A stretch of 64,000 nt of DNA from Caecibacter massiliensis (GTDB lineage Bacteria; Bacillota; Negativicutes; Veillonellales; Megasphaeraceae), in the NCBI GenBank assembly GCA_900095875.1, contig LT608311.1, positions 124,001-188,000 of the forward strand. Direction: 5' to 3'. A program made the translations under genes and the position numbers. The first letter of the stretch is position 1. Each line of letters begins with the position of its first letter. Under the pieces are notes generated by a model, which was not told where the DNA came from, made no database searches, and saw only the letters and a program-made list of their open reading frames with translations. This document shows positions 7,586-25,336 of this stretch, in pieces.

Positions 7586-10027
7586 TTATACACCCAGTCC
7601 GGCAAAGAGTGCCAGATGATAGGTAATAAAACCACCAATATAAGCAAATACGAGGCACATGCCATCGACGGCGAGGAGCATTTTCCAGGAACCGGTTTCA
7701 CGTTTGATGACGGCCATTGCTGCAACGCAGGGCATGTACAGCAGGCAAAATACCATCAATGAGAGGGCTACGGCCGGATTGAAGTCCGGGTCGTCTCTCA
7801 GGTAAGCGACGATGCCCGATTCATGCGTATCATCACCACCGACGCTGTAAATCGTACCCAGTGTCGAAACCATAACTTCCTTGGCAGCCGTGCAGGCAAT
7901 GAGGCCTACGCCGATTTTCCAGTCAAAGCCAAGGGGCTGGATAACCGGTTCGACGAAATGGCCGATGCGGGCCGCATAGGACTGTTCCAGTTTTTCGGCA
8001 TTCTGCTGGTCTTCGAGTTTGGCTGTTGCATCATCGGCTTCTGCTTTGGCATCAAACAAAGGCAGAGCCTGTGCAAATACAGTCGGGTTCTGTTCCTGGA
8101 GATCGGCAAAGCTGTCTGGGTATTTACCCATGAACAGCGTATTTTCTGCTTCTTCCGAATTCTTGACCTGATCTTCAACAGAACTCAGAGCCGCAGCCGG
8201 ATTCAGGGAGTTACCTGTATCCGCTTCGTCTTCGTCGGCTTCATCGGCTGCTTCGTCAGCTGCTGCTACCATGGCTTCATACATATCGTTCAATTCAGCA
8301 TTATCTTCTATGTCAGAAAGGCCATACCCGGTCAGGATGCTGGCTTGAGTTTCTTCCATCTGGGCCGTTACGGCTTCTTTGGCCGCATCGTAATCCTGGC
8401 TGTATTCTACATCCATCGGATAGGCCGTGAGGAACCATACCAGAATGGAAGCGCCAAGAATGAATGTACCGGCTTTTTTGAGGTACAATACGGTGCGTTC
8501 CCACATATGGGTCAGAACGCCTTTGAGCGTCGGGATATGATAAGGCGGCAATTCCATGACAAACGGTTCCTGTTCGCCCTTAAACGCTGTATGGCGGAGT
8601 ACCAGCGCGACGCATACGGAAACGATAATCCCCAGCAGATATATGCCGAAGAGGACCGTACCGCCGTGGCCGGAAGCACCGAAGAAAGCCGCAATCAAAA
8701 GTGTATACACAGGCAGGCGGGCACCACAGCTCATAAAGGGGCAGGCCATAATGGTGACCAGACGGTCTTTTTCATTGTCCAGTGTACGGGCAGCCATAAT
8801 ACCAGGAACGTTGCAGCCAAAGCCAAGGATCATCGGTATGAACGATTTCCCATGGAGGCCCAGGGCACGCATGGCCCGGTCAATGAGGAAAGCTGCACGG
8901 GCCATATATCCCGTGTCTTCCAGCAGACTGATGAATAAATACAACAGTACAATAAGCGGTACAAATGAAAGTACAGAACCGACACCGCCGATGACGCCAT
9001 CAACGACGAGGGAACGAAGCTGTTCGTCTTCAATCACATCATTGCACCAGTCACCGAGCATGCCAAAGCCTGTATCCAGCCAGTCCTGAGGATATGCGCC
9101 AAGATTGATGACGACAACGAACATGAGCCACATGAGGCCGAGGAAAATAGGAATGCCCAGGAAGCGGTTTGTCAGGACACTATCGATTTTATCCGACAGG
9201 GAGTCCGTCGTACCCGGTTTAATAACGGCATTATTATAGGCCTGTACAGCAAAACGGTGGCGGTATTCAGCAAAGCAGAATTCCAGATCTACTTTATTCT
9301 TCAAGGAATCCCGCAGCGTATGGGCCATGGCCAGGATGCCTTCCGTTCCATCGATGGCCTTTACCTTGCTGACGACATCACTGTCATTTTCCAAAAGTTT
9401 GATTGCCAGCCAGCGTACAGGATACTGGATAATGCCTGTCTTCTGGATCATATCTTCCAGGCTGGTGATGGCTGGTTCCAAGTCGGGGCCGTAATCGACG
9501 TTTGCGTTCTTTACCGTTTCTTCTTTCTGGGCTACATTCATGACGGCTTGCAATAATTCCTGGGTCCCTTTATTTTTACTGCCTACGAGAGGAACCACTG
9601 TAGCTCCCAGCTGTTCACCCAGTTTTTTCAAATCGATTTGGGCACCCATGCGTTCGGCAATATCCATCATGTTCAGACCGATGACAACAGGCCGCCCCAA
9701 TTCAATGATTTGGGCTGCCAGATACAGATTCCGTTCCAGGTTAGAAGCGTCCAAGACGTTTACGATGATGTCCGGTTTTTCATTAATAATAACATTTCTT
9801 GCAACGACTTCATCCAGAGAACGGGCTGTCAAGCTGTACGTACCGGGAAGATCGACGAACAAAAGGCTATGATTGTCATAATTGCAACGGCCTTCCTTCT
9901 TTTCTACCGTAACACCGGGGTAATTGCCGACATGCTGTTTTGCACCCGTAATATTATTAAAAATTGTCGTCTTTCCGCAGTTCGGATTGCCGGCGAGGGC
10001 AACCTTGATAGTTCCTGCATTATCCAT
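7586..10027 (-). CDS. feoB: Ferrous iron transport protein B
   Basis: 813 residues. An N-terminal G domain shows G1 GNPNCGKTT, G2 around PGVTV, G3 DLPGTYSL and G4 NMMD (residues about 9-125). A GDI-like helical region and the membrane domain follow, with two Gate motifs (GFGCNVPGIMAARTL; CPFMSCGARLPVY). It imports Fe2+ across the inner membrane. Between membrane segments, residues about 538-684 form a long soluble insertion that is strongly acidic, including a run of Glu, Ala and Asp near residue 600. This makes the protein longer than the roughly 770 residues of E. coli FeoB. feoA ends 5 bases upstream. Confidence 0.97.
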   Translation of the reverse strand: MDNAGTIKVALAGNPNCGKTTIFNNITGAKQHVGNYPGVTVEKKEGRCNYDNHSLLFVDLPGTYSLTARSLDEVVARNVIINEKPDIIVNVLDASNLERNLYLAAQIIELGRPVVIGLNMMDIAERMGAQIDLKKLGEQLGATVVPLVGSKNKGTQELLQAVMNVAQKEETVKNANVDYGPDLEPAITSLEDMIQKTGIIQYPVRWLAIKLLENDSDVVSKVKAIDGTEGILAMAHTLRDSLKNKVDLEFCFAEYRHRFAVQAYNNAVIKPGTTDSLSDKIDSVLTNRFLGIPIFLGLMWLMFVVVINLGAYPQDWLDTGFGMLGDWCNDVIEDEQLRSLVVDGVIGGVGSVLSFVPLIVLLYLFISLLEDTGYMARAAFLIDRAMRALGLHGKSFIPMILGFGCNVPGIMAARTLDNEKDRLVTIMACPFMSCGARLPVYTLLIAAFFGASGHGGTVLFGIYLLGIIVSVCVALVLRHTAFKGEQEPFVMELPPYHIPTLKGVLTHMWERTVLYLKKAGTFILGASILVWFLTAYPMDVEYSQDYDAAKEAVTAQMEETQASILTGYGLSDIEDNAELNDMYEAMVAAADEAADEADEDEADTGNSLNPAAALSSVEDQVKNSEEAENTLFMGKYPDSFADLQEQNPTVFAQALPLFDAKAEADDATAKLEDQQNAEKLEQSYAARIGHFVEPVIQPLGFDWKIGVGLIACTAAKEVMVSTLGTIYSVGGDDTHESGIVAYLRDDPDFNPAVALSLMVFCLLYMPCVAAMAVIKRETGSWKMLLAVDGMCLVFAYIGGFITYHLALFAGLGV

Positions 10028-10032
10028 GACTA

Positions 10033-10275
10033 CTAATGACCTCCTCCGACAGCTACACTGATCATAGCTGCTTCATTCTTTCTCAGTGCCAGCGCGGTCC
10101 CTTTGACCTTGACTTCAACGGGGTCGCCCAAAGGCGCAACTTTTACTACTGTGATATGGGATCCCTTGACGACGCCCATATCAACGAGACGATGCTGAAT
10201 ATTCCCATGTCCTTTCAGTGCTTCTACTACACCGCTGACACCGGGTTTCATATCCGCCAGTTTGACAATGTTCAT
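10033..10275 (-). CDS. feoA: Ferrous iron transport protein A
   Basis: 80 residues, a single SH3-like FeoA domain with the family signatures HRLVDMGVVKGSHI and APLGDPVEVKVKG. It is a cytoplasmic partner of FeoB needed for Fe2+ uptake. A good Shine-Dalgarno (AAAGGAGGTG) precedes ATG 10275. It lies 5 bases upstream of feoB in the same operon. Confidence 0.96.
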   Translation of the reverse strand: MNIVKLADMKPGVSGVVEALKGHGNIQHRLVDMGVVKGSHITVVKVAPLGDPVEVKVKGTALALRKNEAAMISVAVGGGH

Positions 10276-10311
10276 GATCTGACACCTCCTTTACCACTGT
10301 CCATTGCCCAT

Positions 10312-10351
10312 ATTACAGGCCCGGACGGCGGATGCCGTTCAGGCCTGTAAT
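10312..10351 (-). promoter_or_regulatory. GC-rich intercistronic stem-loop upstream of feoA
   Basis: attacaggcc (10312-10321) pairs with ggcctgtaat (10342-10351), and the inner part can pair further (gacggc with gccgtt). No U-tract follows. It sits just before the feoA ribosome-binding region, within the feo operon, and may act as a processing or stability element. Confidence 0.5.
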
Positions 10352-10357
10352 GGAGAT

Positions 10358-10651
10358 TTACAATGCACATCGCTCAGCACGAGCCTGTAATATAGACTTT
10401 AAAGCGCTTGAACTGCTCGTATGGGAACGAACGACTTCTACGTTCTTGCGCTGAGCTTCCTTCACAGCACAATGTACCATTCTATGGGACACGGTACTCG
10501 TAAACAGTACTACCAGATCGGGCGAACCGATTTTTGATTTGAAATCGCTTGGTACCTGGGTAAATACTTTTGCCTTATAATCAAACTTTTTACAAATACT
10601 TTTGTACTGGCAAACCATACAATCATTTCCACCTACAATGACAACACTCAT
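10358..10651 (-). CDS. DUF2325 domain-containing protein
   Basis: 97 residues. The start MSVVIVGGNDCMVCQYKSIC and the later SPDLVVLFTSTVSHRMV block are typical DUF2325: a small Rossmann-like fold beginning VVIVGG with a paired Cys (CMVC) that could bind metal. It is the promoter-proximal gene of the feo operon. DUF2325 genes are frequent companions of feo in Negativicutes, as I recall. Function unknown; a redox or iron-linked accessory role is inferred only from position. Confidence 0.8.
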   Translation of the reverse strand: MSVVIVGGNDCMVCQYKSICKKFDYKAKVFTQVPSDFKSKIGSPDLVVLFTSTVSHRMVHCAVKEAQRKNVEVVRSHTSSSSALKSILQARAERCAL

Positions 10652-10976: not shown

Positions 10977-13064
10977 TTAAAATCGTTTCACACTTCGTGC
11001 CGGACCCAGGATGCGGACACTGTTCATGACGACTGCGAGTGTAGCCGTATTGTGAATCACAGCGGCCCAAAGCGGACTGATCCTTCCCAGAGCCCCCAGC
11101 AGCATAGCTGCCGAGTTGACGACAATGGTCGCCGTAAAGTTCTGATTAATGATTTTCATCGTTTTGCGGCCAATGACCAGGGCATCATACAATTTGGACG
11201 GATCTTCCGAACGGATAGTAATGGCTGCCGATTCTGCAGCAATATCCGTCTTATTGCCACCCAGGCTGACACCGATATCAGCAAATGCAAGGGCCGGCGC
11301 ATCATTAATCCCATCGCCGACCATCATGACGTTCCCCCGTTTCTGAAGCTTCATGACATAATTTGCCTTGTCTTCCGGCAGGATTTCTGCATGGTAGGAA
11401 TCAATATCCATATCGCGGGCTACTTCTGCAGCCACTTCTTTCGAATCGCCAGTCAGCATAACGACTTCATCGATGCCAAGACGGCGCATCTGATTCAGCG
11501 TCTTCTTCATAGCTGGCCGTATCGGATCCTGAATGGCCATGAAACCGATAAACGCCCCATCACGTGCTACATAGAGAAGGCTCTTGCCAACGGTCTTTCC
11601 CATAGCTTCCGGCAGGCCCGTGACACCTTCTTCGTTCATGAAACGGCGGCTGCCGACGAGAATCGTACCGCCTTTATACGTTTCAAAGTCAGGCACGACG
11701 GCACGCATTCCCCGTGCCACAATCGTTTCCGATGTATCATGGGACGGCGTCGTCCATTTATGATTTTTGACGTATTTCTGGATGGCGACAGCCAGTGGAT
11801 GAACTGAATGCATTTCCGCTGAAGCAGCCAGCAGGATCATTTCTTTTTCATCGACGCCAGGTGCCGTCTGAATCTGCTGTACCTGCGGAACCCCCATCGT
11901 AATGGTGCCGGTCTTATCGAGAACAATAGTATCGATATCAGCAAGATTTTCGATGTAGTTGCCGCCTTTGATCAGAATACCCTTGCGGGCAGCCACACCA
12001 ATAGCCGCAGAGATAGCCGTAGCCGTAGAAAGCTTCAGGCCGCAGGAAAAATCAATGAACAACAGGTTCAAAACACGCTGCCAGTCTTTGGTCGCACCAT
12101 AGACGATTGCCGCACCGATGAATGAAATAGGTACCAGCATATTTGCCATCTTATCGGCAAAGTTCTGTACCGGAGCACGTCTCGTCTGAGCTTCTTCTAC
12201 GAGATGGATAATCTGGGCCAGGGATGTATCGTTGCCGACCTTTTCCACGTGAATGACCAGACTTCCCGCTTCAATGACACTGCCCGCGTAGACGAAAGAG
12301 CCCTTCTGCTTGATTGCCGGATTCGATTCGCCGGTAATGGAGGCCTGGTTTACCGCGGCATTGCCACTTACGACACGCCCGTCAACACATATCTTTTCGC
12401 CGAGGTGAACTGCGATGTGATCACCTGGTTTTAACGATTCTACGGGGACTTTCTTTTCTTTTCCCTGTTCGATAAGCCATACATCACGCTGATCCAGCCG
12501 TAACAAGCCTGAAATCTGTTTGCGTGCCCGTTCTGCCGCATATTCTGTCAGCATTTCTGCCCCGTTGGATAAAGCCAGAAGAGTCAGGCTGGATTCGGGC
12601 TTCCCTGCCAGGACGGATGCAACGACAGCTGTCGCCGTCAACGTATCGGCATTGGCCTGATGTTCGCGTACGACACCAAGAACACCGTTTTTAATGAACC
12701 GGCGGGCAATGAACAGGGTAAAGAGCCGGCGGAACAAAAGAATGCTATCGTAAAATGCCGGATTGGTTTTGCGCAGGATATTCATGGCAATAAATCCACC
12801 AACAGACAGGATTGCTTCCCGTTTATAGGAAGCAATATCCAAATCTTTTCGTTCTTCCCGTTTTGCACCATACGTTTTTTCAAAGCTGTGGAGCAGCGGC
12901 AGAGCCGAGCGGGGATCAAACGGCCGTCTATAATACAGAGTAACCAGCCGGCCGTCAGTCGAGGCCGCTACGACACCTCGCAGCTGGCGCAGCCGCACTC
13001 CCAGCAGAGGACGGATCCGGGCAGGGATTTCTGCATGGAGCCGTAACTTGGTACACATATACAT
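10977..13064 (-). CDS. P1B-type metal ATPase, ferrosome FezB-like
   Basis: 695 residues from ATG 13064, 5 bases after the upstream stop with GAGAGG before it. P-type ATPase motifs are all present: ITGESN, DKTGT (phosphorylated Asp at 383), MLTGDS, VGDGINDAPA. There is no N-terminal CxxC domain; residues 7-90 look like an HMA_2-type domain with IPARIRP. The membrane metal motif that is CPC in Cu or Zn pumps is FSCGLKLSTAT here (Ser340-Cys341-Gly342-Leu343-Lys344). Such CPC-lacking pumps surrounded by PGRxR proteins recall P1B-6 ATPases (FezB) of ferrosome clusters, proposed to load iron into membrane vesicles. The ATPase class is certain; the iron and ferrosome role is inference. Confidence 0.8.
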   Translation of the reverse strand: MYMCTKLRLHAEIPARIRPLLGVRLRQLRGVVAASTDGRLVTLYYRRPFDPRSALPLLHSFEKTYGAKREERKDLDIASYKREAILSVGGFIAMNILRKTNPAFYDSILLFRRLFTLFIARRFIKNGVLGVVREHQANADTLTATAVVASVLAGKPESSLTLLALSNGAEMLTEYAAERARKQISGLLRLDQRDVWLIEQGKEKKVPVESLKPGDHIAVHLGEKICVDGRVVSGNAAVNQASITGESNPAIKQKGSFVYAGSVIEAGSLVIHVEKVGNDTSLAQIIHLVEEAQTRRAPVQNFADKMANMLVPISFIGAAIVYGATKDWQRVLNLLFIDFSCGLKLSTATAISAAIGVAARKGILIKGGNYIENLADIDTIVLDKTGTITMGVPQVQQIQTAPGVDEKEMILLAASAEMHSVHPLAVAIQKYVKNHKWTTPSHDTSETIVARGMRAVVPDFETYKGGTILVGSRRFMNEEGVTGLPEAMGKTVGKSLLYVARDGAFIGFMAIQDPIRPAMKKTLNQMRRLGIDEVVMLTGDSKEVAAEVARDMDIDSYHAEILPEDKANYVMKLQKRGNVMMVGDGINDAPALAFADIGVSLGGNKTDIAAESAAITIRSEDPSKLYDALVIGRKTMKIINQNFTATIVVNSAAMLLGALGRISPLWAAVIHNTATLAVVMNSVRILGPARSVKRF

Positions 13065-13069
13065 AACAA

Positions 13070-13693
13070 TCACTTTCCTCTCAAAAGGCTGTACGCCCAC
13101 CATAAGAGCTGCGGACCAGACGCCCGTTCATTCATCGCGATAGTCCGGCGCAGTCCCCGTATAATGAATATGAGGGAAACCAGCGCTTTCAAGTCAAGCA
13201 GATGACCTGTACTGTCCGATACTCCCTGATTGAACATACGGCAGACATCAGCAGCGGTATGACGGAAGTCTGATTCGACTTTCTGTTCCATCGTTTTAGC
13301 TTCGTCCAGTTCTTTCATCAGCTCTTCCCCCGGTAAGGGAACAGAAAAAACCTGTTCACTCAACACCTTTTCGACCGTATCGAGCGTTTTTTCATCCCCC
13401 AGGAGGAGGATACTGCCCGTTCGGGGATTGATTTCAACACGGCGGATGCCCGACATTTTATACAGACATTGTGCCAGGAGGCCGGCCAGGGCCTGATTGC
13501 GTACGAGGCTTCTGGCATAATAACGGCGTCGTCCCGGACTTTGGGATGCCCGACTAAAAAACGGTAAAACAGGAACAGGCCGGGAATCTGGTATAGTGTT
13601 GTGGGCGACGCCTGAATGGCCGGAGTTACTAAAAAATTGGTGAATCGACTTACCAATAGAGGCACCAATCATGAATCCTGATACATAAGACAC
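13070..13693 (-). CDS. HMA_2-like protein with SPGRRR motif, ferrosome cluster
   Basis: 207 residues, GTG start at 13693 with AAGGAGA 7 bases upstream. A short N-terminal hydrophobic segment (SGFMIGASIGKSI) is followed by SPGRRRYYARSL and an HMA_2-like ferredoxin-fold segment containing IRRVEINPRTGSILLLG. No CxxC is present, so it is not a classical copper or zinc chaperone. The C-terminus has a hydrophobic segment (LKALVSLIFIIRGLRRTI), suggesting membrane attachment. It lies 5 bases upstream of the ATPase and 4 bases downstream of the next HMA_2 gene, so the three are co-translated. Confidence 0.7.
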   Translation of the reverse strand: MSYVSGFMIGASIGKSIHQFFSNSGHSGVAHNTIPDSRPVPVLPFFSRASQSPGRRRYYARSLVRNQALAGLLAQCLYKMSGIRRVEINPRTGSILLLGDEKTLDTVEKVLSEQVFSVPLPGEELMKELDEAKTMEQKVESDFRHTAADVCRMFNQGVSDSTGHLLDLKALVSLIFIIRGLRRTIAMNERASGPQLLWWAYSLLRGK

Positions 13694-13697
13694 GTTG

Positions 13698-13976
13698 TTA
13701 TCTCCTTTCTATGCGCTTGACGACGTATTGTTCCACTTTCGCCAATTCGTGATTTGTCCGGAGCAGGCCAGGCTGATATTTGATTAATACGGAACCGGTC
13801 ACCATATTGACTTCAACCGAGTCTATTTCATGATAACTGGAAATATACGCATATACCTGCCGGCACAATCCGGCATTACCTATCAGCCGCTTGCTGTAGA
13901 GCCGGATACGGCCTGGAATATAAGAAGATATCTGCACAGACCGCATAATAATATCCCATTTTGAAAATGGCAGCAT
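13698..13976 (-). CDS. HMA_2-like protein with IPGRIR motif, FezC-like
   Basis: 92 residues from ATG 13976, which has AAAGG upstream; a longer frame to 14090 would run through a hairpin and overlap the upstream gene. It contains SSYIPGRIRLYSKRLIGN and then VNMVTGSVLIKYQPG, the shape of an HMA_2 domain without metal-binding Cys. The IPGRIR motif resembles the Arg-rich MIPGRxR motif reported for ferrosome Fez proteins (from memory). It sits between the mini-protein gene and the SPGRRR gene in the same operon. Confidence 0.7.
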   Translation of the reverse strand: MLPFSKWDIIMRSVQISSYIPGRIRLYSKRLIGNAGLCRQVYAYISSYHEIDSVEVNMVTGSVLIKYQPGLLRTNHELAKVEQYVVKRIERR

Positions 13977-14012
13977 ATTCTGTTTACCTTTCACAAATTC
14001 TGATATCACAAG

Positions 14013-14052
14013 AAAAAGAGACTGTCCCAGGAGGGCGAGACAGTCTCTTTTC
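14013..14052 (-). terminator. Terminator-like hairpin inside the fez-like operon
   Basis: aaaagagactgtc and gacagtctctttt (14014-14026, 14039-14051) form a 13-bp stem followed on the minus strand by CTCTTTTTCT. It separates the mini-protein gene from the HMA_2 and ATPase genes, so it may act as a partial terminator that makes the short message more abundant. Confidence 0.65.
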
Positions 14053-14058
14053 TTCTGA

Positions 14059-14277
14059 TTATTTAGCCTGTGCTGCTTCCTGTGCGGCAATCATATCTTC
14101 GAGTTCTTCTTTTTGACGCTGTAATTCAGCAACAGGAACTGTAGCCGATGCTGCTGTAGCAGCCGGCTGCTGCAGAGCCAGTAGCTGCTGTTCTCTTTCG
14201 ACCATCAGTTTATATCCGAAAATACCTGCCAGTACACCCACGCCTAAGCCAATCCAAAAATCCTGATTCTGAAACAT
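14059..14277 (-). CDS. Glycine-rich single-span mini-protein, copy 1
   Basis: 72 residues. MFQNQDFWIGLGVGVLAGIF begins a single membrane span with a GxGxGxxxGxxG zipper. It is followed by basic, Gln-rich and Ala-rich segments and a short amphipathic Glu-rich helix (ELQRQKEELEDMIAAQ). No known domain recognised. It is near-identical in layout and sequence to the 69-residue protein at 17549-17758. First gene behind promoter 14362-14391. A glycine-zipper membrane protein at the head of a FezB-like operon could be a FezA-like scaffold, but this is inference. Confidence 0.75.
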   Translation of the reverse strand: MFQNQDFWIGLGVGVLAGIFGYKLMVEREQQLLALQQPAATAASATVPVAELQRQKEELEDMIAAQEAAQAK

Positions 14278-14361
14278 AGGGACATCTCCTTTTATCCGGC
14301 TCCATCTTTCCTGAGAATTACGAAGCTGTTGTTGTGAAATTGATAACTTTTTACATTAATT

Positions 14362-14391
14362 ATTATATATGAAATCGGTAATTACTGTCAA
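14362..14391 (-). promoter_or_regulatory. Promoter of the fez-like operon
   Basis: Minus strand TTGACA (14386-14391), 18-base spacer, TATAAT (14362-14367). It points to the mini-protein gene at 14277. The 458 bases between the two ATPase operons otherwise hold only AT-rich sequence and the divergent promoter. Confidence 0.75.
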
Positions 14392-14617
14392 TATTGTGAT
14401 ATTATGTTTTTAAATTTTTTGAACGCCCTTGATATACATGTATTTTATCGCCTTGTCTTCGGAGATACGTTTATGTGCCTTATTATGCATTATATAATTT
14501 TAGATTTATTTATCAATATCTTCTAGCTTGAAGGTTTTATATGAACCTTAATAAATACCTGCCCAGTTTACTGAATCCAGTTTACTGAATAATATTATTA
14601 TAATAAAAATATCATCT

Positions 14618-14646
14618 TGACATCTGCCATCAGACAGCGTATGCTA
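14618..14646 (+). promoter_or_regulatory. Promoter of the Zn/Cd-type ATPase gene
   Basis: TTGACA (14618-14623), 17-base spacer, TATGCT (14641-14646). Start codon is 89 bases downstream of the -10. Confidence 0.75.
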
Positions 14647-14667
14647 ATAGCATAAAACAAATGAAGA

Positions 14668-14679
14668 TATGTTCATATG
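14668..14679 (+). promoter_or_regulatory. Possible metalloregulator operator
   Basis: atatgttcatat: two 5-bp palindromic arms around a two-base centre, placed about 15-27 bases after the expected transcription start. It resembles in size and composition the ATATG/TTCA elements bound by ArsR/SmtB-family zinc and cadmium sensors, but no such regulator gene is nearby. Tentative. Confidence 0.3.
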
Positions 14680-14734
14680 TTTAAATGTTAGAAATGAAGT
14701 TTATATACTATACTAATCAAAGAAGGTGCTTGAG

Positions 14735-16837
14735 ATGGAAAAAGTATTTGTTTTAAAAGGGCTGGACTGCCCGAACTGCTCCGCTAAGATTGAAAAAGAG
14801 GTAGGCGAATTGGAAGGCATTACTTCCTCTACGGTAAATCTCATGAAACAGACTCTGACGATTACGCTGGATGAGGACCGGGCCCGTACGATAACTCCCA
14901 TCATCGAATCAATCGTACATACACACGAACCTGATGTAGAGGTGCAGGAACAGTCAGAAGCATCTCCGGGCTGCAGTGAGGAGAATGAAAATACGCGAAA
15001 CCGCATCATCCGCCTGGCCGCCGGCGCCATCCTGTATGCCATCATCATGGTCCTTCATTCCTTTTACTCTTTTACCGGTATGACTTACCTGGCAGGACTC
15101 ATAGCCGCCTATTTTATCCTGGGCTATGACGTTCTCTGGCAGGCATTGCGCAATATCACCCATGGCCGGATTTTCGATGAACATTTCCTCATGAGCATTT
15201 CCACCATCGGAGCCTTTGGCATCGGCGAATATCCGGAAGCGGTTGCCGTCATGCTGTTCTACCAGATTGGCGAATGGTTCCAGGACCTAGCTGTAGACCG
15301 GTCCCGCCATTCCATTGCCGGGCTCATGGATATCCGCCCGGACATCGCTCATATCCGGCATAACGGAAAAGAAATCACCGTAACCCCCGATACAATCGCA
15401 GTCGGTTCGACGATTATCGTCCATCCGGGCGAACGGATTCCCCTGGATGGCCAGGTCATCAGCGGCAGTTCACTTCTCGATACGCGGGCACTGACAGGAG
15501 AATCGGTTCCCCGCCGTGTTCACAGCGGAGATACAGCCCTTTCCGGATGTATTGCCAAAGACGGAGTCATCGAAATTAAAGTCAGCCACACCTTTGGAGA
15601 ATCGACGGCCAGCAAAATCATTGACCTCGTACAGAATGCTGCCAGTCGCAAAGCGCCAACGGAACGGTTCATTACCCGGTTCTGCCGGTATTACACGCCG
15701 TTCGTCGTTTTCAGTGCGCTGCTCCTCGGTCTGGTCCCTCCCCTCTTCTTCGGTGGTCTCTGGGCCGACTGGCTGATCCGTTCCTTTATATTCCTCGTCA
15801 TTTCCTGCCCCTGTGCATTAGTCATCTCTATTCCTCTGACCTTTTTCAGCGGTATCGGAGCTGCTTCCCGCAAAGGGATTTTAGTAAAAGGCAGCAACTA
15901 TCTGGAAGCCCTGACCCAGCTCGGTACGGTTGTTTTCGATAAGACTGGCACACTCACCAAAGGCGTATTCTGCGTCACGGCAATCGATTCCACTGACAAT
16001 TTTTCCAAAGACACGGTCCTTCATCTTGCAGCACTGGCGGAATCTCAATCCCGCCATCCCATTGCCCAGTCTATCCGCCAGGCCTGGAAAAATCCGATTG
16101 ATACGACGACTTTATCAGATTATCAGGAATTATCCGGTCTGGGAATCTGCGTCGTCTACAGAGGAAAAGAAATTCTGGCCGGCAATGAAACGCTGCTCTA
16201 TCAAAAGCACATCACGTTTACTCCCAGTCCGGCAGCTGGAACCAAAGTGTACATCGCCTATGGCGGATCGTACGCCGGATGCCTGCATATCACCGACGAA
16301 ATCAAAGAAGACAGCCGGCAGGCTATCCAGGGACTCAAAGATGCCGGCGTCTCCCAGACGGTTATGCTCACAGGAGATGCAGAAGACATTGGCCGGACCG
16401 TTTCCCAAAAACTGGGACTGGATACCTATTATGCCCAACTGCTGCCACAAGATAAAGTAGACCGGCTGGAAGAGCTGGATGCCCACAAGCAGATTGGAAA
16501 GAAATTAGCCTTTGTCGGCGACGGCATCAATGATGCGCCCGTACTTGCCAGAGCGGATGTAGGCATTGCCATGGGCGGTCTCGGATCCGACGCAGCTATT
16601 GAAGCGGCCGATGTCGTCCTCATGACCGATGAACCCTCCAAGCTGGTGACAGCTATCCGCGTAGCAAGAGCAATTAAAGGCATTGCCTGGCAGAATATCG
16701 TCCTGGCACTGGGTATCAAGGGATTGCTCCTCATTCTGGGCGCGCTGGGTATGGCCACTATGTGGGAAGCCGTATTTGGCGACGTAGGCGTCATGATTCT
16801 GGCAGTACTCAATTCCATGAGAGCCCTGCGGGCATAA
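14735..16837 (+). CDS. Heavy-metal P1B ATPase, Zn/Cd type
   Basis: 700 residues from ATG 14735 with AGAAGG 8 bases upstream (an in-frame GTG lies 9 bases earlier). An N-terminal HMA domain has GLDCPNCSAKIEKEV (Cys12, Cys15). The membrane metal site is SCPCALVISIP (Cys358-Pro-Cys360). Phosphorylation motif DKTGT with Asp402, then MLTGDA and VGDGINDAPVLARADVGIAMG. The CPC with following ALVIS and the length fit ZntA/CadA pumps exporting Zn2+, Cd2+ or Pb2+ rather than CopA. Transcribed away from the fez-like operon and ended by a strong terminator. Confidence 0.9.
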   Translation: MEKVFVLKGLDCPNCSAKIEKEVGELEGITSSTVNLMKQTLTITLDEDRARTITPIIESIVHTHEPDVEVQEQSEASPGCSEENENTRNRIIRLAAGAILYAIIMVLHSFYSFTGMTYLAGLIAAYFILGYDVLWQALRNITHGRIFDEHFLMSISTIGAFGIGEYPEAVAVMLFYQIGEWFQDLAVDRSRHSIAGLMDIRPDIAHIRHNGKEITVTPDTIAVGSTIIVHPGERIPLDGQVISGSSLLDTRALTGESVPRRVHSGDTALSGCIAKDGVIEIKVSHTFGESTASKIIDLVQNAASRKAPTERFITRFCRYYTPFVVFSALLLGLVPPLFFGGLWADWLIRSFIFLVISCPCALVISIPLTFFSGIGAASRKGILVKGSNYLEALTQLGTVVFDKTGTLTKGVFCVTAIDSTDNFSKDTVLHLAALAESQSRHPIAQSIRQAWKNPIDTTTLSDYQELSGLGICVVYRGKEILAGNETLLYQKHITFTPSPAAGTKVYIAYGGSYAGCLHITDEIKEDSRQAIQGLKDAGVSQTVMLTGDAEDIGRTVSQKLGLDTYYAQLLPQDKVDRLEELDAHKQIGKKLAFVGDGINDAPVLARADVGIAMGGLGSDAAIEAADVVLMTDEPSKLVTAIRVARAIKGIAWQNIVLALGIKGLLLILGALGMATMWEAVFGDVGVMILAVLNSMRALRA

Positions 16838-16856
16838 ATAATACATTGAAGCACAA

Positions 16857-16906
16857 AATACGGAGCTGGATCCTGATGAGTTCGTTTCAGGAGACAGCTC
16901 CGTATT
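16857..16906. terminator. Bidirectional terminator after the Zn/Cd ATPase
   Basis: aatacggagctg and cagctccgtatt form a 12-bp stem (arms about 16858-16868 and 16895-16906) between convergent genes. Confidence 0.75.
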
Positions 16907-16950
16907 AATACGTGCAGCTACAGGCCGGCAGGCAGCCGGCCTGTAAGCGT

Positions 16951-17466
16951 TTATCCGGCAGGGAACCCTTTGCGGCGGGCGTGGGATGCCGCATAGCGGA
17001 TATAAGGTCGAAGCGGTTCCAATGCCGCTCCTTTTTCCGGATCATACACGATCAGCAGAAAACCGGTCCGGGAATTCATGTCCAGATGACCAATCTGACG
17101 GAAGGCTTCTAATGTTTCCCACAAAACCTTCTTGTATCCTTCCTGTCCTTTTAGTTCCCGGATATACAGGCGTATGCGTCCCGGTATGTAAAAAACGACT
17201 TCTCCATGTCCGGGAAAGGGGTTTCTTACACAGGGCAGTCTGTCCAATACATCTGGCCGCGGCAACACCGGTTTTCTGACCGGCAGAACCGGTTTACAGG
17301 CCCATGCCCCAAGCATCGCTTTCCGGTTCTGAAATGCGTGAATTAGTGAAAGACCTGTCAGTGCCATACCAAAGGCAATATGTGCCTGTTTAGATCCGGC
17401 AACCAGGGATCCAATCGTACCGGCAAGAGAAATGGTCAGAGGCAGTCCCAATGATATCCGTTTCAT
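16951..17466 (-). CDS. HMA_2-like membrane protein with IPGRIR motif
   Basis: 171 residues. The N-terminus carries hydrophobic stretches (LPLTISLAGTIGSLVAG, then HIAFGMALTGLSLIHAF), followed by a Pro-rich and Val-rich linker and an HMA_2-like domain with VVFYIPGRIRLYIR and SRTGFLLIVYDPEKG. No Cys pair for metal binding in the domain. It shares the IPGRIRLY block with the 92-residue protein at 13698-13976. It is the second gene of a two-gene unit with the mini-protein upstream. Probably a second ferrosome-type accessory protein; inference from motif and location. Confidence 0.7.
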   Translation of the reverse strand: MKRISLGLPLTISLAGTIGSLVAGSKQAHIAFGMALTGLSLIHAFQNRKAMLGAWACKPVLPVRKPVLPRPDVLDRLPCVRNPFPGHGEVVFYIPGRIRLYIRELKGQEGYKKVLWETLEAFRQIGHLDMNSRTGFLLIVYDPEKGAALEPLRPYIRYAASHARRKGFPAG

Positions 17467-17504
17467 CGTATCCCTCCTTGCTGGCCTTTATGCCAGCTAG
17501 CAAA

Positions 17505-17536
17505 ATAACCGGTGCAGCCAGGCTGTCACCGGTTAT
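17505..17536 (-). terminator. Hairpin between mini-protein copy 2 and the HMA_2 gene
   Basis: ataaccggtg (17505-17514) pairs with caccggttat (17527-17536). It mirrors the placement of the 14013-14052 hairpin after mini-protein copy 1, so it probably trims or partly terminates the message. A minor stem (gctggcctttatgccagc, 17480-17497) lies beside it. Confidence 0.5.
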
Positions 17537-17548
17537 ATAGACTAAATA

Positions 17549-17758
17549 TTACTGCTGCGCTTCCTGTGCGGCAATCATGTCTTCCAAAGCTTCTTTCTGA
17601 CGCTGCAGTTCTTCCAGGGACGGTGTACCAGCGGCTGCCGGTGCCGGCTGCTGCAGGGCAAGAAGCTGCTGCTGTCTCTGCTGCATGAGCTTATACCCAA
17701 AGATACCTGCTACGACGCCAATACCTAAGCCAATCCAAAAATTCGTATTCTGAAACAT
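17549..17758 (-). CDS. Glycine-rich single-span mini-protein, copy 2
   Basis: 69 residues, a clear paralogue of the protein at 14059-14277. It has the same MFQN start, FWIGLGIGVVAGIFGYKLM span, QQQLLALQQPAP block and terminal ELQRQKEALEDMIAAQEA helix, differing mainly in the linker. Its duplication together with an IPGRIR gene and a hairpin shows that the whole head of the fez-like operon was copied. Function unknown; probably membrane-bound with the C-terminus in the cytoplasm. Confidence 0.75.
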   Translation of the reverse strand: MFQNTNFWIGLGIGVVAGIFGYKLMQQRQQQLLALQQPAPAAAGTPSLEELQRQKEALEDMIAAQEAQQ

Positions 17759-17829
17759 AAAAATCCTCTCCTAACTACAGATACAACATATAAAAATAAC
17801 AGGAATACACAAATCCCCTTATCTTCTTT

Positions 17830-17859
17830 ATTATAGTCGCGCAAGTAAATGAATGTCAA
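17830..17859 (-). promoter_or_regulatory. Promoter of the second mini-protein/HMA_2 unit
   Basis: Minus strand TTGACA (17854-17859), 18-base spacer, TATAAT (17830-17835). The same spacing is seen in the promoter of the first copy. Confidence 0.7.
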
Positions 17860-18160
17860 TAACAAAATACGCCTTATTTTTTCATAAATCTTTTTGTTGT
17901 TGTTTTATATATTTATTAATTTATATATTTAAATATTTATTATAGTGGATTTTTATAGTTAAATTTGCATAATTATCATTTATTATTGAATAGTATACAC
18001 AGTGTAAAAATATATTTTATGTTAAATTAAATAAATGATTATCATAAACATTTATTTAATGCAGTAGACAGACGCTCCGATCTCTGCGTATAATCCGCTT
18101 CTAGTTTATGGATATATATCAAAATAAAGCCCGCATCCGATTGATTTATATATTGGTTTA

Positions 18161-18175
18161 TGATAATTAATATCG
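18161..18175 (+). promoter_or_regulatory. Fur-box-like site upstream of the DUF3793-flavodoxin unit
   Basis: TGATAATTAATATCG matches 12 of 14 scored positions of TGATAATnATTATCA. Weaker relatives occur at about 18036-18050 and between the -35 and -10 at 18252-18266. The remaining 17860-18245 is AT-rich with no gene. Confidence 0.5.
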
Positions 18176-18309: not shown

Positions 18310-18867
18310 ATGAACATCGATCATTTACTCGTTACATACTGTGCACCGACACTGGCCCGTCTGAAAATAGGTGCACTGCTCTGTCTTCACCGGGAAGGAA
18401 CAACGGAAGAATATGAAACCAGCGTCGCCCAGTATAACCGTCAGTATAATAGTAAAGGGCTATATTTCCGCATTCTCTATCAGTGCCCCCAGCGGACACT
18501 ATTATACGTCTTTCGTCCGGAAATGGTAGAAGCTTATACCCGGAAATCTTATATTGCACGGTTTCTCCAGTCATATGGATATCATCCGTACAGCAGCATA
18601 TCTCAACTTTTAGATCATCTCTCCCAGCGCTTCCAGGAAGATGGCTGTTTTCCACACGAATCAGGAATATTCCTGGGGTATCCTCTCGCCGATGTGCTGG
18701 GGTTCATTACAAACAAAGGTAATCATGCCAAGCTGTGCGGTGAATGGAAAGTATATGGCGATGTTCGTCAGGCCGCCGCCTTATTTCATGCCTATACGTG
18801 CTGCCGCAAAGATTATATGGACCGCTTTGCCATCGGCACGACATTAGAAAAGCTCATCGTAGCATAA
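18310..18867 (+). CDS. DUF3793 family protein
   Basis: 185 residues, ATG 18310 after AGGAAGGAGG. The N-terminal CAPTLARLKIGALLCL, the central LYVFRPEMVEAYTRKS and the C-terminal GIFLGYPLADVLGFITNKG-type block (with Gly-Tyr-Pro) are characteristic of DUF3793. Several Cys are present (CAPTL, LLCL, KLCG, TCC). Family function is unknown. In clostridia and Negativicutes it commonly precedes a flavodoxin gene, as here (13-base gap), and often lies near feo genes. An iron-starvation role is inferred from the Fur-like sites. Confidence 0.85.
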   Translation: MNIDHLLVTYCAPTLARLKIGALLCLHREGTTEEYETSVAQYNRQYNSKGLYFRILYQCPQRTLLYVFRPEMVEAYTRKSYIARFLQSYGYHPYSSISQLLDHLSQRFQEDGCFPHESGIFLGYPLADVLGFITNKGNHAKLCGEWKVYGDVRQAAALFHAYTCCRKDYMDRFAIGTTLEKLIVA

Positions 18868-18880
18868 GGAGGACTCAATT

Positions 18881-19294
18881 ATGGTAGAAATCGCATATTG
18901 GAGTGGTACAGGAAACACAGAAGCTATGGCACAGGAAATCGCCGCCGCTGTTAAAGCCGCCGGTGCTGATGTAGAAAGTGTACTGATGGAAGATACGACC
19001 CCCGATGCCGTCGCTCAGCATGACGTCATTCTCCTGGGTTGCCCTGCTATGGGTTCAGAAGAATTGGAAGACAGTGTGGTCGAACCATTCTTTACGGCCA
19101 TCGCTCCCAAATTAAATGGTAAAAAAGTGGGCCTCTTCGGTTCCTATGGCTGGGGAACCGGCGAATGGATGGACACATGGAAACAGCGCGCCCAGGACGC
19201 CGGCGCTGTCGTATTTGGTACGGCTATCGTCAATGAAACACCCGATAATTCAGAAGAATGCGCTGCTCTCGGCAAAGCAGCAGCCGCTCAATAA
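18881..19294 (+). CDS. Flavodoxin
   Basis: 137 residues, a short-chain flavodoxin. The FMN phosphate loop is WSGTGNTEAMA (residues 7-17), and the isoalloxazine-binding loops are GCPAMGSEELEDS and SYGWGTGEWMD with the stacking Trp. The protein closely resembles the classical M. elsdenii flavodoxin (same length and same loops), which is the main reason for naming the host Megasphaera-like. It replaces ferredoxin as a low-potential carrier when iron is scarce. Second gene after DUF3793, with AAGGAGG before ATG 18881. Confidence 0.97.
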   Translation: MVEIAYWSGTGNTEAMAQEIAAAVKAAGADVESVLMEDTTPDAVAQHDVILLGCPAMGSEELEDSVVEPFFTAIAPKLNGKKVGLFGSYGWGTGEWMDTWKQRAQDAGAVVFGTAIVNETPDNSEECAALGKAAAAQ

Positions 19295-25069: not shown

Positions 25070-25336
25070 ATAGCGTTGCTAAGACGAGAAGAGTATGCAG
25101 CAGGGACTGTCACAGAGAGCTCCTGTCCGGTGCAATGGAGCACAGAAAGCGCTGCAGAAGATGGACTCTGAGCAGACGTGCCGAATAGTCAGGCCGTCCG
25201 GTTGTACCCGTTATCGTACTATGGTATTGAGGGCCTTAGGGCCTGCGTACCTGAAGAGGCTGTTTTCGTGAGGAAACAGTGAAATTGGGTGGTATCACGG
25301 TGCTTCCGTCCCTTACTGGGGCGGAAGCTTTTTTTG
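25070..25336 (+). promoter_or_regulatory. T-box leader controlling metA (tRNA-Met sensing)
   Basis: Classic T-box order: a long Stem I region beginning near 25070 with AGTA-containing segment (agagtatgcag), a candidate specifier ATG at 25161-25163 (gaagatggact), and the T-box sequence ggGTGGTatcacGG near 25287-25300. The TGGT bulge would pair with an ACCA acceptor end, as in tRNA-Met with discriminator A. The leader ends in an intrinsic terminator (gcttccgtccc / gggcggaagc, 25302-25328, then seven T). Uncharged tRNA-Met would favour the antiterminator. The adjacent methionine gene supports the specifier. Confidence 0.88.

Follow-up and report, generated by a model that had tools for sequence, protein, structure and literature searches.

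A putative iron-linked operon with its own mini-protein partner, sister to the ferrosome systems, in Caecibacter massiliensis

If an operon combines a P1B-type ATPase, arginine-motif proteins related to metal-binding domains and very small membrane proteins, does it build a ferrosome? The question is raised by a cluster at positions 10977–17859 of a 64,000-nucleotide stretch of the Caecibacter massiliensis genome (the window; positions 124001–188000 of contig C2, LT608311.1, in a genome of 2.65 Mb), which an initial annotation, made from the letters alone, called a ferrosome-like (fez) cluster. Sequence comparisons point to an iron-linked, P1B-6-like system that would be sister to ferrosomes and has its own accessory proteins. 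"Ferrosome-like" is a fair description, since the ATPase falls beside the P1B-6 kind with support of 99 and 98 in two trees; "fez cluster" would say more than these comparisons show, because the ATPase belongs to its own clade beside ATPases with SCA or SCV metal motifs, neither a DUF6110 partner nor FezC accompanies it, and the trees hold no validated FezB rows. What appears to be new is a clade of ATPases, here called xCG for its metal motif, with a mini-protein partner that belongs to no Pfam family, which would make this operon a close cousin of the ferrosome operon and no plain copy. With modest confidence, we lean toward reading it as an iron-handling machine for ferrosome-like storage, sister to the ferrosome (Fez) system; that it forms an organelle, moves iron and is regulated by iron is what we infer.

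The cluster consists of two minus-strand units, each with a promoter-like site in front. Unit 1 holds mini-protein 1 and then a long PGRIR protein, and unit 2, the core operon, runs from mini-protein 2 through a short PGRIR protein and an SPGRRR protein to the ATPase:

10977–13103, minus strand, P1B ATPase of the xCG clade, 708 amino acids (aa), with DFSCGLKLST, DKTGT and GDGINDAPAL motifs and HN near the C terminus
13070–13693, minus strand, SPGRRR protein, HMA_2 family, with a predicted N-terminal helix, HMA-like fold lacking CxxC, and C-terminal helices with an invariant Trp
13698–13976, minus strand, short PGRIR protein, HMA_2 family, no membrane hairpin, 92 aa counted from ATG
14059–14277, minus strand, mini-protein 2, first gene of the core operon, a glycine-zipper span followed by a QRQKEELEDMIAAQEA tail
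14362–14391, minus strand, promoter-like TTGACA-18-TATAAT site ahead of mini-protein 2, 12/12, a consensus match only
14726–16837, plus strand, CPC-type P1B-2-like ATPase with a CxxC HMA domain, separating the two units
16951–17466, minus strand, long PGRIR protein, a helix hairpin and a PGRIR HMA_2 domain
17549–17758, minus strand, mini-protein 1, paralogue of mini-protein 2 and 77% identical to it
17830–17859, minus strand, promoter-like TTGACA-18-TATAAT site ahead of mini-protein 1, 12/12, a consensus match only

The SPGRRR gene overlaps the start of the ATPase gene by 34 bases. Promoter-like sites number 25 in the region, compared with 15.1 (standard deviation 3.9) in shuffles, and 17859, the end originally assigned to the cluster, is the first base of such a site. 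The parts that had been annotated are all there, but the cluster is not continuous: the CPC ATPase, which went unmentioned, lies inside and splits it. This gene was considered as a member and rejected; it is probably outside the system, because it lies on the opposite strand, has a CPC motif, and its best relative in the genus (64%) and others are located elsewhere.

The metal motif of the window ATPase is LFIDFSCGLKLST, with SCGLK in place of CPC, as first described (DFSCGLK). It fits a pattern, D[FY]xCG[LI][KR]LST, whose C-G and L-S-T are kept in 11/11 aligned ATPases and whose x is mostly S, with A in one relative (G144) and I in Priestia. The canonical P1B-6 motif in the fourth transmembrane segment (TM4) is SCA, whereas the window ATPase has SCG there, CG being invariant in the aligned rows. 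An HN motif, AVIHNTATL in the window, is also invariant in 11/11 xCG rows. The IPARIR noted at the N terminus is present but is a degenerate trait in the genus, where other loci have LPVRMR, IPSRMR, LPPRVR and similar sequences, and the Pfam scan found no HMA_2 domain at the N terminus of the window ATPase; in the Priestia and G144 relatives the N-terminal PGR is intact. NCBIfam gives the ATPase general P1B names, with no FezB model matched; four proteins compared with PHROGs had no match there. A search of the window genome with an SCA ATPase returned three P1B ATPases: the xCG one, the CPC one between the two units, and a frame of 959 aa at another site, whose motif was not read. No SCA ATPase was seen among them.

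Phylogeny of the ATPase had been set beforehand as a check, and it placed the protein beside the P1B-6-kind clade but not inside it. Two trees were built, of 39 and then 38 rows; for the second, two PMG rows, the window CPC ATPase and two further rows (L121, L125) were dropped and four SCA rows were added. In both trees the xCG rows form one clade (12/12, support 100/100), as do the SCA/SCV rows (9/9, then 11/11, support 100/100), and the two clades are sisters (99/98), with xCG not nested in the other. CPC ATPases with HMA_2 N termini branch next as a weak group (88/68, 77/54), which includes a Rhodococcus ATPase adjoining a DUF1490 gene. Both trees reject the xCG ATPase as an ordinary P1B-1/P1B-2 or CtpC-type pump.

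The neighbors of the sister clade are informative. DUF6110 genes adjoin SCA/SCV ATPases in five genomes (G424, G126, G304, G128 and, with an internal stop, G403) and on two Deinococcus plasmids; in G150, the match beside such an ATPase is just under the cut-off. YtxH-annotated genes adjoin those of Azospirillum and Arcobacter, a Vibrio neighbor is YtxH-like by eye, and the G265 ATPase also has a small gene beside it. DUF6110 has been linked to P1B6 ATPases, and HN in TM6 described as a P1B6 feature (PMC9374683); the P1B-6 substrate is given as Fe(II) (PMC7558416). C. difficile fezAB is CD630_05910-05920 (PMC11651100), a pair that a table in PMC6311696 lists as an ATPase and a hypothetical protein, with positive values, among iron-related genes; both FezA and FezB are reported as required in C. 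difficile. DUF6110-type partners may correspond to FezA. The R. palustris fez operon comprises six genes, RPA2333-2338 (PMC12016538), and six contiguous genes on Azospirillum brasilense p3, the ATPase last, may correspond to them, given the same gene number. From the trees and the DUF6110/YtxH neighbors of the sister clade, the xCG type therefore belongs beside the P1B-6 kind, a kinship supported by the trees, the HN motif, the PGRxR/HMA_2 traits and neighboring feo genes. We do not claim Fez membership, because the xCG ATPases form their own sister clade in trees without a validated FezB.

Several loci met along the way have features of their own. In L074 and L075 (G211, G144), a P-type ATPase with a PGRIR N terminus and LCPMG replacing CPC lies beside a CPC HMA_2 ATPase and has an extremely long tree branch. 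In L070 and L073 (G177, G261), the gene divergent from a CPC HMA_2 ATPase gene encodes a protein of ~1530 aa with a PGRVR/PGRIR N terminus and, by eye, a P2-type-like ATPase core. The SCA cluster of an Arcobacter plasmid includes a DUF2202 protein (L123:3028-3711), which we take to be ferritin-like, amid small membrane genes, with TonB receptors and a ChaN lipoprotein nearby. In G304, a small regulator-like gene, DtxR-like by eye (L162:5553-5930), precedes the DUF6110 and SCA ATPase genes, an order that may mirror C. difficile fezXAB.

Is the operon simply a fez operon inside the published FezB set, with nothing new but another species? This would be compatible with iron storage, and the 2022 ferrosome paper reportedly found FezB in diverse bacteria and archaea, such that its survey may already include xCG ATPases. 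We consider it rather unlikely. The xCG ATPases form a fully supported clade of their own with a different metal motif and a different small partner; DUF6110 (PF19605) was found neither among the operon proteins by Pfam nor in the window genome, and the FezC (DUF4405) cytochrome of the D. magneticus type had no Pfam match among ten window proteins scanned. The excerpts of ferrosome literature sampled, a small set, do not mention the xCG type, and a literature search combining ferrosome with the host names gave no mention among the matches listed, which is no proof of absence.

The reading of the operon as a separate, ferrosome-like system draws on how faithfully its parts travel together. In a sample of 398 genomes of one phylum, which we take to be Bacillota, 17 have an xCG ATPase scoring at least 1030 bits; the remaining listed matches score at most 660, apart from a 706-bit match that is a second, partial ATPase copy in G211. 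Sixteen lower-scoring ATPase loci that were read comprise 12 CPC, one CPG and three SCA. The mini-protein profile matches exactly the same 17 genomes (E < 1e-20), plus G289 weakly (5.5e-4). Since the profile was built partly from these 17 genomes, it is the 380 empty genomes that are informative. The 17 belong to four lineages and so are not independent of one another; Fusobacterium, Succinivibrionaceae and Priestia were found outside the 398. DUF6110 occurs in 7/398 genomes (five above the cut-off), and the only one shared with the xCG set, G202, is below it.

Within the genus, the xCG ATPase was found in 14/15 genomes, the one miss being a 78% complete genome, whereas it was found in 0/45 genomes from elsewhere in the family and order (E ≤ 1e-100). 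Megasphaera hutchinsoni (L078) carries the same operon, in keeping with the description of the genome as Megasphaera-like. Across 26 fetched loci with an ATPase of this type (L030 and L045–L069, some of which end at contig ends), the order mini-protein, PGRIR, SPGRRR, ATPase is kept in 23, among them L057, where the SPGRRR and ATPase frames are split by assembly errors or gene decay. In the other three, the mini-protein follows the ATPase, and two of these have no separate PGRIR gene in the scan. Because the order is so widely kept, and because the genome has no other HMA_2 protein above the cut-off, we regard the cluster as beyond chance. A contig scan, which used third-base limits favoring AT-rich genomes and was too narrow to catch the Fusobacterium and Priestia motifs, yielded ten loci (Megasphaera, Pectinatus haikarae, Anaerovibrio, two Selenomonadaceae, and five from Succinivibrio, Anaerobiospirillum and other Succinivibrionaceae); C. 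difficile was not among the ten from this narrow scan. The loci L082 and L084–L086, which are limited by their contigs, showed no mini-protein gene. A plasmid search found xCG relatives in Fusobacterium vincentii and on Priestia megaterium QM B1551 pBM400 (L087), where a pair of HMA2 genes precedes the ATPase gene and one more HMA2 gene, then the gene of a 74-aa mini-protein, come after it. Other members of the phylum have xCG relatives as well.

The genes around the cluster provide the link to iron, and the feo and flavodoxin neighbors of the initial annotation are where it placed them:

7586–10651, minus strand, DUF2325, FeoA and FeoB genes, downstream context (DUF2325 by Pfam, FeoA and FeoB by eye)
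18156–18174, plus strand, best Fur-box-like 19-mer of the window, 15/19 to a Fur consensus
18310–19294, plus strand, DUF3793 and flavodoxin-like genes, divergent upstream context (DUF3793 by Pfam, flavodoxin by eye)

Same-strand feoA/feoB genes lie less than 4 kb from the ATPase gene in the window and in 8/26 fetched loci, which represent three lineages (the genus, L066 of f5 and L068 of G261). In one of the fetched loci, L048, feoB of G002 reads as two overlapping frames (322 and 504 aa), through an assembly error or decay. In the window, L067 and L080 (Pectinatus haikarae), loci of two families, the operon has divergent DUF3793 and flavodoxin-like genes next to it; a literature search on DUF3793 found nothing related. 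The Fur-box-like 19-mer precedes mini-protein 1 by ~400 bases and DUF3793 by 135, and since it is nearer the latter it may serve that gene. The Fur-like sites of L067 and L080 likewise reach 15/19 to this consensus, and such sites could belong to either divergent unit. In 9/26 upstream regions, the best Fur-like site is reached by at most 5% of simple letter shuffles. Farther off, a T-box leader at 25072–25316 is the only Rfam match above threshold in the window.

Both mini-proteins of the window, as annotated, have a single hydrophobic span with GxxxGxxxG; neither contains Cys or His. The tail is rich in Glu, Gln and Ala and has a conserved KExLED (KExLEDxIA); G14, L52, K56, E57, E60, D61, I63 and A64 are invariant among 19 family rows. 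Five family members scanned gave no Pfam match above the cut-off, and neither DUF1490 nor DUF6110 matched the window mini-proteins. Aligned by hhalign with the DUF6110/YtxH set, the family profile matches over 22 columns only, around KExxED (probability 85), a likeness that is suggestive of a shared function and weak as a sign of shared descent. The extra mini-protein and PGRIR copies are real, and the window genome is the only one among the 15 of the genus with a second mini-protein. In two Succinivibrionaceae loci, an extra small gene with a glycine-rich span directly follows the mini-protein gene (L081:1593-1892 and L083:1324-1584).

These properties also prompt the main rival explanation, because the mini-proteins look PacL-like: a plasma-membrane efflux platform of the mycobacterial kind, in which the mini-protein clusters an ATPase that exports excess Fe(II) or another metal, and there is no organelle. 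PacL1 combines a single membrane span with Glu/Ala repeats, and PacL proteins function only with a two-glycine groove (PMC9374683, PMC13043812); the mini-proteins show a single GxxxG span and a Glu/Gln/Ala tail, and the CPC HMA_2 ATPases that branch next in the trees include the Rhodococcus one beside DUF1490. However, without Cys or His the mini-proteins have no PacL-type metal-binding tail, they do not match DUF1490 (nor DUF6110, the likeness to DUF6110/YtxH being confined to the 22 columns), and the adjacent uptake genes feoAB suit storage better than export. On this evidence, we judge an efflux platform unlikely. That the same machine serves zinc, manganese, cobalt or nickel, its iron neighbors being coincidental, is quite improbable: although CtpC, which has been called P1B6-like, pumps zinc (PMC9374683), a CPC P1B-2-like ATPase lies between the two window units and 18/26 loci have no feo close by, three lineages have feoA/feoB as neighbors and two families the flavodoxin-like gene, the sister group is of the P1B-6 kind listed as carrying Fe(II), and the CPC ATPase is on the opposite strand with its genus relatives elsewhere.

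The iron-storage reading further gives a part to the PGRxR proteins, and proteins of this arginine-rich kind define Fez systems. The three in the window were described as HMA_2-like without Cys pairs, and all lie above the curated PF19991 cut-off of 30 bits: the SPGRRR protein at 98.2 bits, the short PGRIR protein at 45.6 (in a slightly longer frame) and the long one at 41.2. They have 2, 1 and 2 Cys, respectively, and no CxxC. A fourth HMA_2 match in the window genome is below the cut-off. Each PGRxR family alignment has two invariant Arg, and the SPGRRR and PGRIR HMA_2 families align with each other (probability 99). The predicted SPGRRR model, from 27 rows (mean pLDDT 85, pTM 0.48), places a ferredoxin-like domain between an N-terminal helix and C-terminal helices. 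Its residues 44-116 match HMA domains from pumps and chaperones for copper, with Z scores of 7 to 8.6 (for 6ff1, Z 8.1, rmsd 2.5 over 65 residues), with RNA polymerase L-type subunits scoring nearly as high (Z 7.8). Since Z scores near 8 are common for small folds, the main support for an HMA fold is agreement with the PF19991 match. In the model, the arginines would lie, by aligned ranges, at the start of the strand matching HMA strand 1, and the likely Cys-pair position has no Cys. The long PGRIR protein is predicted to combine a helix hairpin with a domain of this same type (mean pLDDT 81); Foldseek gave nothing for this model at E ≤ 0.001. Long-kind PGRIR proteins occur in the relatives L058, L064, L066–L068 and L080, and L061–L063 hold a long and a short one. 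Within the genus, the only clear long PGRIR homologue outside the window genome is in G011 (45%), away from the G011 ATPase and among genes that read by eye as a TonB receptor and an ABC transporter.

How might such a machine store iron? We favor ferrosome-like storage because the closest kin are of the P1B-6 kind, including the organelle-forming FezB, and because iron importers adjoin in three lineages. Gene content and order, the sister position in the trees, the co-occurrence of mini-protein and ATPase, the HMA-like SPGRRR model and the feo neighbors are observed; the substrate and its direction, vesicle formation, the roles of the arginines and mini-proteins and iron regulation are what we infer from them. 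The xCG ATPase would move a transition metal, likeliest Fe(II) imported by the neighboring FeoAB, out of the cytosol and into a compartment enclosed by membrane. Glycine zippers may let the mini-proteins self-associate, and their conserved KExLED tail would draw the ATPase together in a patch of membrane or a vesicle. In the PGRxR proteins, which would be HMA folds, conserved arginines close to the first strand would take the place of the Cys pair; contacts of these proteins with phosphate, iron-phosphate or lipid head groups may help to nucleate the store.

Several observations weigh against this account. The tree rows were our own selection, with no validated FezB among them. HN is not specific to P1B-6, because 6/9 CPC rows labelled P1B12 also have it. 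In 18/26 fetched loci, some of them cut by contig ends, no feo gene is seen nearby. In 17/26 upstream regions, including both window regions (350 bases each), the Fur-like site is not above shuffles, and a motif search in these regions recovered the ribosome binding site only. Priestia megaterium has the system, yet it is an aerobe. Finally, an expected absence of ferritin from the genus proved wrong: PF00210 is above its cut-off in 15/15 genus genomes (12 scoring at least 57 bits, three below 30 bits), the family is also matched in 14/14 control genomes, and with ferritin-family genes present the xCG system is not the sole possible iron store.

The simplest account of the operon is that of an iron system which split off from the FezB line. 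A bolder version, which we put forward tentatively and rate as somewhat doubtful, is a second class of bacterial iron organelle. Here an xCG ATPase, an obligate mini-protein and stand-alone PGRxR proteins would build ferrosome-like stores in Negativicutes, Succinivibrionaceae, Fusobacterium, Priestia and other members of the phylum, after parting from the FezB line and gaining a scaffold protein of their own. If so, common gut, rumen and oral anaerobes, and a tractable soil Bacillaceae, would have membrane-bounded iron stores made with a different small protein. Comparing the sister systems would reveal which parts make the compartment, since the ATPase and HMA_2 traits are common to both and the small partner differs, and mutagenesis could aim directly at the glycine zipper and the invariant KExLEDxIA tail.

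Among known systems, the ferrosome (C. difficile fezXAB, D. magneticus FezA/B/C, the six-gene operon of R. palustris) resembles the xCG operon in the P1B-6-type kinship of its ATPase, a small membrane partner, iron-uptake neighbors and PGRxR proteins; S. putrefaciens fez is also a six-gene operon. It differs in having what is probably an SCA motif in place of xCG, in probably falling outside the xCG clade (a comparison made without a validated Fez sequence), and in lacking both the mini-protein of no Pfam family and the extra stand-alone HMA_2 proteins found here. The SCA/SCV ATPases with DUF6110 or YtxH neighbors (Deinococcus, Azospirillum, Arcobacter, probably Vibrio, and G126, G128, G304, G403 and G424), which are the tree sister, share a PGRxR-like motif near the N terminus in most members and a one-span small partner, mostly with a KExxED-like tail; in contrast to the xCG systems, they have an SCA/SCV motif and PF19605 or YtxH partners and, in the 398-genome sample, occur in other genomes. 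Mycobacterial PacL-CtpC likewise sets a one-span small protein with a glycine groove and Glu/Ala-rich tail beside an HN-motif P1B ATPase, but it has a CPC motif and handles zinc, and we know of no extra PGRxR proteins in these platforms. Closest is the Priestia megaterium pBM400 cluster, a member of the xCG clade (with ICG) that has the same kinds of parts, including the mini-protein, and differs in residing on a plasmid of a soil Bacillaceae and in carrying an additional 196-aa HMA_2 protein after the ATPase.

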